From positions 1 to 64,000 of the forward strand of contig JAJPIM010000036.1 of the NCBI GenBank assembly GCA_021324775.1: a DNA stretch of 64,000 bases. The letters run 5' to 3'. The notes beneath the pieces are model-generated. The model was not told where the DNA came from. It ran no database searches and worked only from the letters and a program-made list of their open reading frames with translations. Below, piece by piece: positions 1-63,527 of the stretch. This DNA is from Gemmatimonadota bacterium (lineage in GTDB: Bacteria > Gemmatimonadota > Gemmatimonadetes > Gemmatimonadales > Gemmatimonadaceae). Position 1 is the stretch's first letter; each line of letters starts with the position of its first letter. The translations under genes and the position numbers were made by a program.

Positions 1-87
1 ATCGCGATGGATGAGGGGCTGCGCTTCGCGATTCGCGAGGGCGGCCGCACGGTGGGTGCCGGCGTCGTGACGAAGATTCTGAAGTGA
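1..87 (+). CDS. tuf: Elongation factor Tu, C-terminal end (partial)
   Basis: Only the last 28 codons and the TGA stop are in the window; the rest lies upstream. The reading IAMDEGLRFAIREGG followed by RTVGAGVVTKILK matches the very conserved end of domain 3 of EF-Tu, the GTPase that brings aminoacyl-tRNA to the ribosome. Its position directly before rpsJ is the usual end of the str operon (rpsL-rpsG-fusA-tuf) running into the S10 operon. Confidence 0.97.
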   Translation: MAMDEGLRFAIREGGRTVGAGVVTKILK

Positions 88-240
88 AGGGGAATGGGGA
101 TTAGGGACTGGGGACTGGGGACTGGGGACTGGGGACTGGGGACTGGGTTCGATCCCGAATCCCGAATCCCGAATCCCGAATCCCGAATCCCGAATCCCCA
201 ATCCCTAATCCCCAGTCCCCAGTCCCTAATCCCCAGTTCC
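88..240. repeat. Heptanucleotide array with inverted arms (array A)
   Basis: Between tuf and rpsJ the left part (about 88-147) repeats GGGGACT in tandem. The right part (about 153-240) repeats the opposite sense, AATCCCG, AATCCCC and AGTCCCC. The two halves are complementary in large part, so the transcript could fold into one long G/C-rich hairpin, or the left arm into a G-quadruplex. The unit is the same as in the array at 4917-5108. Confidence 0.9.
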
Positions 241-275
241 TCATCTCCAATCACCAGCCACTTATTGGTGCTCCT

Positions 276-3722: not shown

Positions 3723-4247
3723 ATGACCGACGTGCGGGCATTCCAGCGGACGACGCGGCAGTCGCCGTACAAGATGCGCCTCGTGATCGACCAGATCCGT
3801 GGCAAGGACGTCAACGATGCGCTGGCCCTTCTCCGATTTTCGAAGAAGCACGCGGCCCGTCAGATCGAGAAAGTGCTGAATTCGGCTGTCGCCAACGCCG
3901 AGTACAAGGGGCGTGCGTCGAACGAGCCGGTGGATGTGGACACGTTGTATGTGAAGCACGCGGTGATCAACGAGGGGCCGAAGCTCAAGCGGTTCACGCC
4001 CGCGGCGATGGGGCGTGCGACGCCAATCCAGAAGCGGACGAGCCACGTCGAGATCGTGCTCGGCCCGCGTGCGGTGCGGGTGAAGCCGCAGCCGAAGGCG
4101 GCGGCGGCTGGTGCGGGTGCGGCCAAGAGCAGTGCGAAGGGCAGCGCCAAGGGCGGAGCCAAGGGTGGAGCCAAGGACGGGGAGAAGGCGAAGGGCGCGG
4201 AGAAGGCGGCGGCTGCGAGGCCGGGCACTCGCAAGAAGGGGGCATAG
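3723..4247 (+). CDS. rplV: 50S ribosomal protein L22 with Lys/Ala-rich tail
   Basis: L22 (uL22) lines the exit tunnel; its hairpin loop is a known macrolide-resistance site. The core covers about residues 1-118 ([19 protein letters not shown] near the start, TSHVEIVLG near the end). The remaining 55 residues are a low-complexity Lys/Ala/Gly tail, making 174 residues against a usual 110-120. It lies between rpsS and rpsC in the standard order, 5 nt before rpsC. Confidence 0.95.
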
Positions 4248-4252
4248 GGAGT

Positions 4253-4912
4253 ATGGGACAGAAGACGAATCCGATCGGCTTTCGGCTGGGCATCTCCAAG
4301 CAGTGGCGTTCGCGGTGGTATGCGAACCGGGATTTTCCGCAGCTCCTGAAGGAGGACGAGCTGCTGCGAAAGTACCTGAAGGCGCGCGTGGGGCATGCGG
4401 CGATCTCCGACATCCACATCGAGCGGAAGCCGGGCAAGGTGGTGGTGACGATCCACACCGGCCGGCCGGGCGTCGTGATCGGGAAGAAGGGTGCGGAAGT
4501 CGACAAGCTGCGCGACGAGCTGACGCAGCTCGTGGGCAAGGAAGTCGGGATCAACGTCGAGGAGATCAAGCGTCCGGAGCTGGACGCGCAACTGGTGGGT
4601 GACAACGTCGCCAATCAGTTGGCGCAGCGTATCTCGTTTCGCCGGGCGATGAAGCGTGCGGTGCAGAGCGCGATGCGCATGGGCGCGCAGGGGATCAAGA
4701 TCAAGTGTGGCGGGCGGCTCGGTGGTGCGGAGATCGCGCGGGTGGAGGGCTACCATGAGGGACGGGTGCCCTTGCACACGTTGCGGGCCGACATCGACTA
4801 CGCGACATCGACGGCGAAGACCACCTTCGGCACGATCGGTGTGAAGGTCTGGATTTTCAAGGGAGAGATCGTCGAAGACCGTCGTGGCAAGACGTACTCG
4901 ACCGGGTCGTAG
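4253..4912 (+). CDS. rpsC: 30S ribosomal protein S3
   Basis: S3 (uS3), 219 residues, forms part of the mRNA entry channel. The start at 4253 is chosen because the protein then begins [14 protein letters not shown], the conserved N-terminus; the same frame is open further upstream through rplV but that part has no coding meaning. The KH domain (about residues 38-106) holds [14 protein letters not shown]. The C-terminus ends normally just before a G-rich heptad array, which separates it by 244 nt from rplP. Confidence 0.97.
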
Positions 4913-4916
4913 AGTA

Positions 4917-5108
4917 GGGGATTGGGGATTGGGGACTGGGGATTGGGGACTGGGGATTGGGGATTGGGGATTGGGGATTGGGGATTGGGGATTGGGGACT
5001 GGGGACTGGGGACTGGGGATTGGGGACTGGGGATTGGGGACTGGGGATTGGGGACTGGGGATGGGGATTGGGGATTGGGGATTGGGGATTGGGGACTGGG
5101 GACTGGGG
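4917..5108 (+). repeat. G-rich heptanucleotide array inside the S10 operon (array B)
   Basis: After an initial GGGG there are 27 units of GGGGATT or GGGGACT in direct tandem (one unit is a hexamer lacking a T). All G-runs are on the coding strand, so the rpsC-rplP transcript would carry some 28 runs of four Gs spaced by three bases, the classical pattern for parallel RNA G-quadruplexes. The array fills most of the 244 nt between rpsC and rplP, which in other bacteria are nearly adjacent. All three frames on both strands read through much of it, but the resulting GDWGLG repeats are not genes. Confidence 0.95.
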
Positions 5109-5156
5109 AATAGAGCGCGGGCGTAAGGCGATTCACGACACTACGCACACCTAATC

Positions 5157-5582
5157 ATGCTGAGTCCGAAGCGGGTCAAGTTCCGGAAGATGTTCAAGGG
5201 GCGCACGCGGGGGCTGGCGACGCGGGGGAACACCGTCGTCAACGGCCACTACGGGCTGCAGGCGCTGGAGCCCGGCTGGGTTTCGAACCGGCAGATCGAG
5301 GCGGCGCGCGTCGCGTTGACGCGGCACATCAAGCGGGGCGGGAAAGTGTGGATCCGGATTTTTCCCGACAAGCCGATCACCAAGAAGCCTGCCGAGACGC
5401 GCATGGGAAAGGGGAAGGGATCGCCGGAGGGATGGGTGGCGGTGGTGAAGCCTGGCCGTGTGATGTTCGAGCTCGAGGGCGTGACGCCGGAGATCGCGGT
5501 CAAGGCCATGGCGCTCGCGGCGGCCAAACTGAGCGTGCGGAGCAAGTTCGTGACTCGTGACGAGGCGCACACCGATGCCTAA
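5157..5582 (+). CDS. rplP: 50S ribosomal protein L16
   Basis: L16 (uL16), 141 residues, shapes the A-site tRNA elbow binding region. It has the classical start [16 protein letters not shown], the [22 protein letters not shown] segment with the modified-arginine region, and [14 protein letters not shown]. Length is normal. It is the first gene after the heptad array. Its last 8 nt overlap the start of rpmC. Confidence 0.98.
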
Positions 5583-9298: not shown

Positions 9299-10081
9299 AT
9301 GGCAGAGAATGAAACTCCCGCAGCCGGCACGCCGGCCACACCGCGCTCGGCCCGTTCGGGCGGTGCGCGGTCTGGCGGTGGGCGCGGAGGCCGAGGCGGA
9401 CCTGGTGGCGGCCGAGGTGGGCCCGGAGGCGGGCGTGGTGGGCCCGGGGGCGGGCGCGGTGGTCCTGGGGGCGGCGGGCGCTCCGGAGGCGGTGGCGGTG
9501 GTGGCGGCCGGGATGGTGACCGGCGCTCGCGGGGTGGCGATGGCCGCGGCGACGGAGGCCGCGAGGGCGGCGAGCTTCTCGAGAACGTGATCGCGATCAA
9601 CCGTGTCGCCAAGGTCGTCAAGGGTGGCCGCCGGTTTTCGTTCAACGCGCTCGTGGCGGTCGGCGACGGCCAGGGCAAGGTCGGGTTCGCGACGGGCAAG
9701 GCGAACGAAGTGTCGGAGGCCGTCCGCAAGGCGGTGGACGCCGCACGCCGGCGCATGGCGGCAATCCCGCTGACGGGCAGCACGATCCCCCACGAGGTGA
9801 TCGGCGAGCACGGTGCGGGGCGGGTGCTCATGAAGCCCGCGGCGCCAGGTGCCGGTGTCATCGCCGGCGGGGCGGTGCGCGCGATCATGGAATGCGCGGG
9901 CATCTCCGACATCCTGACGAAGAGCCTGGGCTCGACCAACCCGCACAACATGGTGCTGGCCGCGCTGGATGGGCTGCATCAACTGACGACGGTCGAAGAC
10001 ATCGCGCGCGAGCGCGGAGTCGACGCGGCGAGCATCGGGTACCGTTCCCGCGCCCGCTCCAAGGAGACGGTGCATGCCTAG
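9299..10081 (+). CDS. rpsE: 30S ribosomal protein S5 with Gly/Arg-rich N-terminus
   Basis: S5 (uS5), important for decoding fidelity. The core starts near residue 95 ([21 protein letters not shown]) and includes GHGAGRV-type loop [12 protein letters not shown] and [13 protein letters not shown]. The preceding 90 residues are almost pure Gly/Arg/Ser/Pro (repeating GGRGGPGG units), so the protein has 260 residues against about 165. The composition resembles RGG-type RNA-binding tails of other proteins, but function is unknown. The last 8 nt overlap rpmD. Confidence 0.94.
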
Positions 10082-15363: not shown

Positions 15364-15525
15364 TAGGGAATTAGGGGCTAGGGACTAGGGATTAGGGACT
15401 AGGGATTAGGGACTAGGGATTGGGGACTAGGGATTAGGGACTAGGGATTAGGGACTAGGGATTAGGGACTAGGGATTGGGGACTAGGGATTAGGGACTAG
15501 GGATTGGGGACTAGGGATTAGGGAA
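15364..15525. repeat. GGGAYTA heptanucleotide array (array C)
   Basis: Tandem heptads GGGATTA / GGGACTA on the plus strand between ftcD and the inositol-phosphatase family gene, both of which are on the minus strand; a transcript of those genes would be C-rich here. The unit is a variant of the GGGGAYT arrays at 88 and 4917 and includes TTAGGG, the vertebrate telomere repeat, by chance of composition. Confidence 0.93.
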
Positions 15526-36562: not shown

Positions 36563-36686
36563 GCCGGCGGGCGCCGGCTAGAAAGGAGAAGTACTGAAAG
36601 GAGAAAGGAGACGAGCCGGCGCTTCGCGCCGGCTAGAAAGTAGAGGTGCTGAAAGTAGAAAGTAGAGCCCCGGCGGCTGCGCCGGC
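36563..36686. repeat. Composite palindrome plus GAAAGTA/GAAAGGA heptads (block D)
   Basis: Two clear GC palindromes (36563-36578 with arms GCCGGCG and CGCCGGC; 36615-36633 with arms GCCGGCGC and GCGCCGGC) are each followed by TAGAAAG and tracts of GAAAGGA or GAAAGTA. A third, imperfect palindrome lies at about 36666-36688. The block fills the whole space between the MATE start and the panE stop. The same palindrome-TAGAAAG join is found at 63402-63440. Confidence 0.85.
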
Positions 36687-36688
36687 TC

Positions 36689-40535: not shown

Positions 40536-40991
40536 ATGCTCAAAGACTTCAAAGCGTTCATCATGCGGGGCAACGTCGTCGACCTGGCGGTGGGTGTGAT
40601 CATCGGCGCGGCGTTCGGAACGATCGTGAAGTCGCTGGTGGACGACATGCTGATGCCGGTGCTCGGGTTGCTCACGGGCGGCATCGATTTCTCGAACATG
40701 TTCGTGCTGCTCAAAGCGGGCGCCAAGGCTCCTGCGCCCTACGCGTCGCTCGCGGATGCGAAGGCGGCGGGCGCGGTCACCGTGAACTACGGCGTATTCA
40801 TCAACGCGGTGATTGCGTTTCTGATCGTGGCCTTCTGCGTGTTCCTGCTCGTCCAGGCCGTGGCGAAGCTCCACAAGGCGCCGCCTCCTGCGCCGCCGAA
40901 CACCAAGGATTGCCCGTATTGCAAGCGCGCCATTCCGAAAGACGCGACGCGGTGTCCCGAATGCACGTCGCAACTCTCGGAAGCCGCGTAG
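40536..40991 (+). CDS. mscL: Large-conductance mechanosensitive channel, with C-terminal zinc ribbon
   Basis: MscL, 151 residues, an inner-membrane pressure valve. [37 protein letters not shown] (TM1) and [20 protein letters not shown] (TM2) are clear. After TM2 there is an added zinc ribbon with C126, C129, C140 and C143, found in a subset of MscL proteins. A GAGGA site stands before the ATG. TAGGTT at 40492 is a possible -10 box. It ends in repeat block F. Confidence 0.95.
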
Positions 40992-41043
40992 AGCGAGAAA
41001 GTAGAGAGTACAAAGTAGAGAGTAGAAAGTAGATAGAAAAAGT
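40990..41043. repeat. GAAAGTA heptad tract (block F)
   Basis: Degenerate heptads (GAAAGTA, GAGAGTA, CAAAGTA, GAAAGTA) directly after the mscL stop. On the minus strand the end of the tract gives CTTTTT and acts as the T-run of the terminator next to it. Confidence 0.8.
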
Positions 41044-41077
41044 GAGAGGGCCGGCTGGGGTTACAGCCGGCCCTCTC
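41044..41077 (-). terminator. Strong terminator between mscL and moxR
   Basis: A perfect 14-bp stem (GAGAGGGCCGGCTG and CAGCCGGCCCTCTC) with a 6-nt loop. On the minus strand it is followed by ACTTTTTC, a good rho-independent signal for the moxR transcript. On the plus strand GTCTTCCTCT follows, so it may serve mscL too. Confidence 0.8.

Positions 41078-63423: not shown

Positions 63424-63527
<104 letters not shown>

Follow-up and report, generated by a model that had tools for sequence, protein, structure and literature searches.

Heptad arrays oriented by replication strand in a Gemmatimonadota genome, one of them within the S10 ribosomal operon

Why should two neighbouring ribosomal protein genes be held apart by a long array of G-rich heptads, and does that array serve the operon in which it lies? 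The question touches a wider one, the preference of bacterial simple repeats for seven bases and the role of those heptads that form G-quadruplexes (G4s). The locus belongs to a Gemmatimonadota MAG, a draft genome, and was noticed in a stretch of 64,000 nucleotides, hereafter the window. There, rpsC (ribosomal protein S3; 4256-4912, + strand, ending with TAG at 4910-4912; assigned from its ORF, the gene call and 80-100% identity to Gemmatimonadota S3) and rplP (ribosomal protein L16; 5157-5582, + strand, with ATG at 5157; assigned from its ORF, the gene call and comparison with relatives) are separated by 247 nt, stop codon included. The same gap measures 5-47 nt in relatives and 96 nt in one further locus (L032), and the one described here is exceptional among them.

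The array between rpsC and rplP

A GGGGATT/GGGGACT heptad array occupies 4917-5109 (+ strand), starting 4 nt past the rpsC stop codon and ending 47 nt ahead of the rplP start. TRF describes it as 27.7 copies of period 7 with 92% matches, and the lag-7 score of the gap (138) was reached by none of 200 shuffles. Its units comprise 16 GGGGATT, 10 GGGGACT, a single 6-nt GGGGAT at 5057-5062 (+) (run spacing 140 to 146), which puts the array out of its 7-nt register, and a last GGGGAAT. The initial annotation, which had reported an array at this place with about 28 G-runs, all on the mRNA strand, is upheld in these respects by the sequence and by TRF: 28 GGGG runs were counted, every one on the + strand, which is the sense strand of both genes and, as shown below, the leading strand. 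The array also yields spurious open frames at 4798-5148 (-) and 4884-5126 (+), which automatic annotation may call as proteins.

The unit had been likened to a cyanobacterial CCCCART/GGGGAYT (STRR-type) repeat, and the match is borne out, since the GGGGA(C/T)T repeats of Nostoc sp. PCC7120 have an identical unit, 26 copies of which stand in its pec operon (Rehm et al. 2015, PMC4692102). By CD, (GGGGACT)4 and (GGGGATT)4 form K+-dependent G4s, and 4-G oligonucleotides resist full denaturation at 95 C (PMC4692102). A G4-aware RNA fold of the window array predicts seven tandem G4s, at -216 kcal/mol versus -37 kcal/mol without G4s. The G4-forming pattern proposed earlier is thus supported by the published CD of the same units and by this prediction.

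A dispersed family and its relatives

A genome-wide search, suggested by the initial annotation, placed the array in a much larger set. The 21-bp core of three exact units, (GGGGAYT)x3, has 128 matches, with none for a reversed-pattern control, and the array is one of about 80: in 1.55 Mb of its own genome, 81 period-7 arrays were found, both unit classes taken together. In the period spectrum of 1.16 Mb of the same genome, period 7 accounts for 79 arrays, compared with 4 for period 6, 1 for 8 and 10 for 9; additional peaks stand at 14, 21 and 28, and a separate one at 12 probably represents coding repeats. Period 7 is therefore nearly exclusive among the arrays of this genome. The G-type class, [AG]GGGAYT, averages 95 bp and reaches 204 bp; the purine-type class, KAGARAG-like, averages 39 bp and makes up nearly half of the arrays. 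Intermediates between the two occur, such as GGGGAAA. Two purine-type arrays came out at zero in the same G4-aware fold.

Further members lie within the window. An inverted pair between the end of tuf and rpsJ consists of a GGGGACT array at 89-147 (+) and an AATCCCC/AATCCCG array at 152-257 (-), the second arm being just upstream of rpsJ (276). An AGGGAYT/GGGGAYT array at 15372-15524 (+) has a minus-strand gene on either side, to both of which it is antisense, and is still on the leading strand, and a purine-type TAGAAAG array at 63461-63499 (+) lies between convergent genes. More purine-rich repeats, of GAAAGGAGA/AGAAAGT units, are present at 36571-36687 and 40988-41048, one of them with a 55-bp period.

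The arrays are mostly non-coding, with overlap to a gene call in only 5 of 78. By gap type they number 20 in convergent, 6 in divergent and 40 in co-directional gaps, a distribution that departs from the expectation by length (p=0.001), with about 17.7 expected in divergent gaps. Between co-directional genes the median distance is 19 nt to the upstream stop codon and 68.5 nt to the next start. Most arrays of this family thus follow a stop codon, and divergent promoters are avoided; the placement near stop codons agrees with the rule published for Xanthomonas and Nostoc (PMC4692102).

The comparison with related genomes that had been called for gave a divided answer. The rpsC protein is 100% identical to that of palsa_1248 (L031, apparently the same genome as G131), with operon DNA identity of 85-89%, yet the same-genus gaps measure 20-34 nt and hold no array, whereas other relatives carry heptads of other sequence; the G131 gap offers no alignable flank for an empty-site comparison. 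Elsewhere, across 179 family genomes and 395 sampled from the phylum, the (GGGGAYT)x3 core has at most 9 matches per genome, and none in the two same-genus genomes. The purine heptad KAGARAG has 11 overlapping matches in one of these (G131) and is absent from the other (G132). Two members of the same family are also rich in period-7 arrays, with 25 in 187 kb (G083) and 19 in 220 kb (G013), and have essentially none at periods 5, 6, 8, 10 and 11. Their units are diverse and genome-specific (GTGAATC, CGAGTCA and GCATCAG in G083:C16, L258-L267; AGGGGTT, CACCAAC and GGGCTGA in G013:C4, L189 and L268-L277), and purine-first inverted pairs are frequent in both.

Some of these unlike heptads fill the very same operon gaps. 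In the rpsC-rplP gap, L032 has CAGATGG-like heptads and L033 has CGAGTCA, and the tuf-rpsJ gap holds inverted repeat pairs whose unit differs by genome (window 60-275; L033 582-672; L046, L039, L032 and L037). The period of the latter pairs is 7 in the window, L033 and L046, 8 in L039 and 9 in L032, and the two arms match each other in each case, as if the hairpin had been kept and its sequence replaced. It follows that sites and unit length recur while the sequence turns over: related genomes keep the length of the repeat and change its letters.

We found no report of Gemmatimonadota heptads in the open-access literature, and three described systems invite comparison. The Nostoc repeats share with those described here long, dispersed, mostly intergenic arrays that form G4s (predicted in the present case), a few inverted pairs and the avoidance of divergent gaps. 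They differ in belonging to another phylum and in their plus/minus counts of 43/57, with no strand polarity reported (PMC4692102), whereas all G-type arrays outside inverted pairs are here G-rich on the leading strand and are accompanied by a second, non-G4 purine class. Given 128 core matches in this genome, at most 9 in any other Gemmatimonadota genome sampled and none in the same-genus genomes, an origin independent of the cyanobacterial repeats appears more likely than the alternative, horizontal transfer. The GGGAATC repeats of Xanthomonas likewise have period 7, are G-rich, lie near stop codons and form inverted pairs, but their unit is different, and a leading/lagging preference is reported to be absent; their unit count differs between species (PMC4692102). 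The TAACTGA direct repeats of Beggiatoaceae, for which a translational role has been suggested, resemble the present arrays in period, in intergenic location, in patchy distribution among relatives and in occurring inside ribosomal-protein operons, and differ in having no G4 potential and usually 2-6 copies, placed immediately before start codons (MacGregor 2015, PMC4679880).

Orientation with respect to replication

Replication strands were assigned from GC skew in this draft genome. On contig C37 the skew switches sign around 140-180 kb, with dnaA at 228 kb of that contig; a switch near dnaA, as at an origin, identifies the G-rich strand as the leading strand. The G/purine-rich strand of the arrays is the positive-GC-skew strand in 74 of 81 cases, and 4 of the 7 exceptions belong to inverted pairs. 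When inverted pairs are excluded, it is the leading strand, and so the lagging-strand template, in 38 of 38 G-type and 32 of 35 purine-type arrays. On single contigs nearly all arrays are oriented alike, irrespective of gene direction. Arrays sharing a contig are not independent, and a contig-level test was added, in which 18 of 19 contigs agree with local GC skew (p=8e-5). Contigs were partly picked for having matches, which influences density and not orientation; a whole-genome purine-pattern search that extends to contigs beyond this set found 33 of 34 concordant within contigs, matched by none of 200000 permutations.

Gene direction can be ruled out as the cause of this polarity, as arrays between lagging-strand genes have their purine strand on the leading strand in 14 of 14 cases. 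Single intergenic copies of [AG]GGGAYT split 44:37 (Fisher p=2e-8 versus arrays), and polarity therefore belongs to the arrays and not to the word. As a counterpoint, even outside arrays the leading strand carries 79% of intergenic purine runs of 10 (665:175), well above what the GC skew of the genome would suggest. A second counterpoint comes from the two other heptad-rich family members, where polarity is not clear (8 arrays agree with skew and 3 disagree in G013; 4 agree and 6 disagree in G083). In G131, three purine-type arrays, too few to weigh, are oriented as expected from the skew over the first 20 kb of their own contigs. On clustering of arrays near the origin, mapping of 27 protein pieces to the complete genome of a relative (G043) gives a mixed picture: array contigs C4, C7, C25, C38 and C40 fall together near 0.89-1.06 Mb, but C8 lies distally and several array-poor contigs lie near the origin.

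The new element here is array polarity set by replication strand, independent of gene direction; we found no report of such polarity for heptad arrays in the open-access literature. The G-runs lie on the mRNA strand of the S10 operon because transcription and the replication fork move the same way there, and the idea that they were chosen for that strand is not supported, arrays elsewhere being antisense to genes. The question posed by G4-forming heptads accordingly shifts from transcription to replication, and this genome offers a natural, direct reading of strand-dependent G4-array survival (38:0), with the non-G4 class as a built-in comparison.

Origin and maintenance of the arrays

We consider it probable, with some reserve, that the rpsC-rplP array belongs to a GGGGA(C/T)T simple-sequence repeat, lineage-specific and replication-polarised, whose copies are scattered through intergenic gaps, and that this repeat is produced by slippage and sorted by a G4 filter. 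At the replication fork, slippage or unequal copying would lengthen arrays seven nucleotides at a time, in non-coding gaps that may tolerate them with little harm. G-rich arrays would survive only if the leading-strand template is the C-rich strand, since a G4 on that template is proposed to block the replisome. In a reconstituted eukaryotic system, G4 arrays do stall the replisome when they are on the leading-strand template, but not when they are reversed (PMC10646557). When the S10 operon is transcribed, tandem G4s would then enter the mRNA as a by-product; there they may have a modest slowing effect on RNA polymerase or ribosomes, or shield RNA ends, but the position of the array shows no sign of selection for such effects. 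The G4 filter leaves the polarity of the non-G4 purine type unaccounted for, and some broader polar process may have to be invoked. Slippage and filter together account neither for the step of seven nor for the recurrence of one unit at dozens of loci. A bolder and quite tentative proposal traces bacterial heptad arrays to a process at the replication fork that inherently advances by seven nucleotides and has a fixed strand polarity; this genome, whose two unit classes both point along the leading strand, would then show that process at work.

A regulatory role in the S10 operon, of the sort put forward by the initial annotation, now seems unlikely. In such a role, tandem mRNA G4s would act as a brake on RNA polymerase or ribosomes, or govern mRNA stability, and so tune the upstream against the downstream genes. 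It could draw on the 28 runs on the sense strand and the seven stacked G4s predicted for them, on a position 4 nt past a stop codon, the site preferred in Xanthomonas and Nostoc (PMC4692102), on the TAACTGA heptads within Beggiatoaceae ribosomal operons (PMC4679880), and on the 47-nt unique leader of rplP (5110-5156, +), which has no Shine-Dalgarno-like purine run beside the ATG. The rplP gene of G131, however, likewise lacks a Shine-Dalgarno-like sequence, though it has no array. The site is not conserved within the genus, about 80 similar arrays of two classes occupy unrelated loci, and orientation follows replication even where arrays are antisense to genes. Nearly half of the arrays, those of the purine class, have no G4 potential. 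A role specific to the S10 operon is thus disfavoured, and the G4s predicted in its mRNA are probably a by-product.

Two other accounts were considered. In one, pyrimidine-rich fragments displaced at the fork would anneal and be incorporated at other lagging-strand gaps, a form of single-strand copying that would keep polarity and share the unit. It would account at once for the shared unit, for polarity in both classes and for the independence from gene direction, but it leaves the seven-base step unaccounted for, and we regard it as unlikely. An origin through reverse transcriptase was rejected, as no RVT_1 reverse transcriptase was found in the genome, which also removes a retro-copying enzyme of that kind.

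The other account holds that the arrays are selected polar chromosome signals, similar to KOPS or AIMS, that guide a DNA translocase or another strand-reading protein. KOPS and AIMS are single short words, rich in G or purines, that are strongly biased to the leading strand and have a conserved reader. The arrays share this bias, extreme in two unit classes, and their density increases with |GC skew| (Spearman 0.60, on contigs partly chosen for having arrays). They are, in contrast, long and tandem with lineage-specific units; a signal should track a conserved protein, and the units differ in or are absent from the same-genus and same-family genomes G132, G083 and G013, with a few purine-type arrays in G131. 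No arrays occur at 140-240 kb of C37, and a KOPS-like word has only 61% intergenic bias. We therefore judge this account improbable.

An assembly artefact is scarcely credible as the explanation of the rpsC-rplP array: although contig ends cluster at arrays and the array is about one short read long, its flanks are unique, its internal T/C variation and 6-nt unit argue against a pure artefact, many independent arrays exist in the genome, and long GGGGA(C/T)T arrays are published in Nostoc. Contig ends fall within 350 bp of a heptad array at 5 of the 46 ends examined, compared with 0.84 expected (C13, C16, C19, C24 and C25), and array lengths need caution for this reason; since assemblies break at heptad arrays, such arrays are probably under-counted in MAGs. 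A chimeric bin was also rejected, as contigs with arrays have the same GC as the others and a tetranucleotide distance within the permutation range. Repeats of another kind occur within genes of the S10/spc region, where ribosomal-protein genes have low-complexity extensions built from 12-24 bp repeats (2008-2183, 4122-4208 and 9389-9475 of the window), encoding Ala/Lys-rich tails and a Gly-rich N-terminal stretch before S5.
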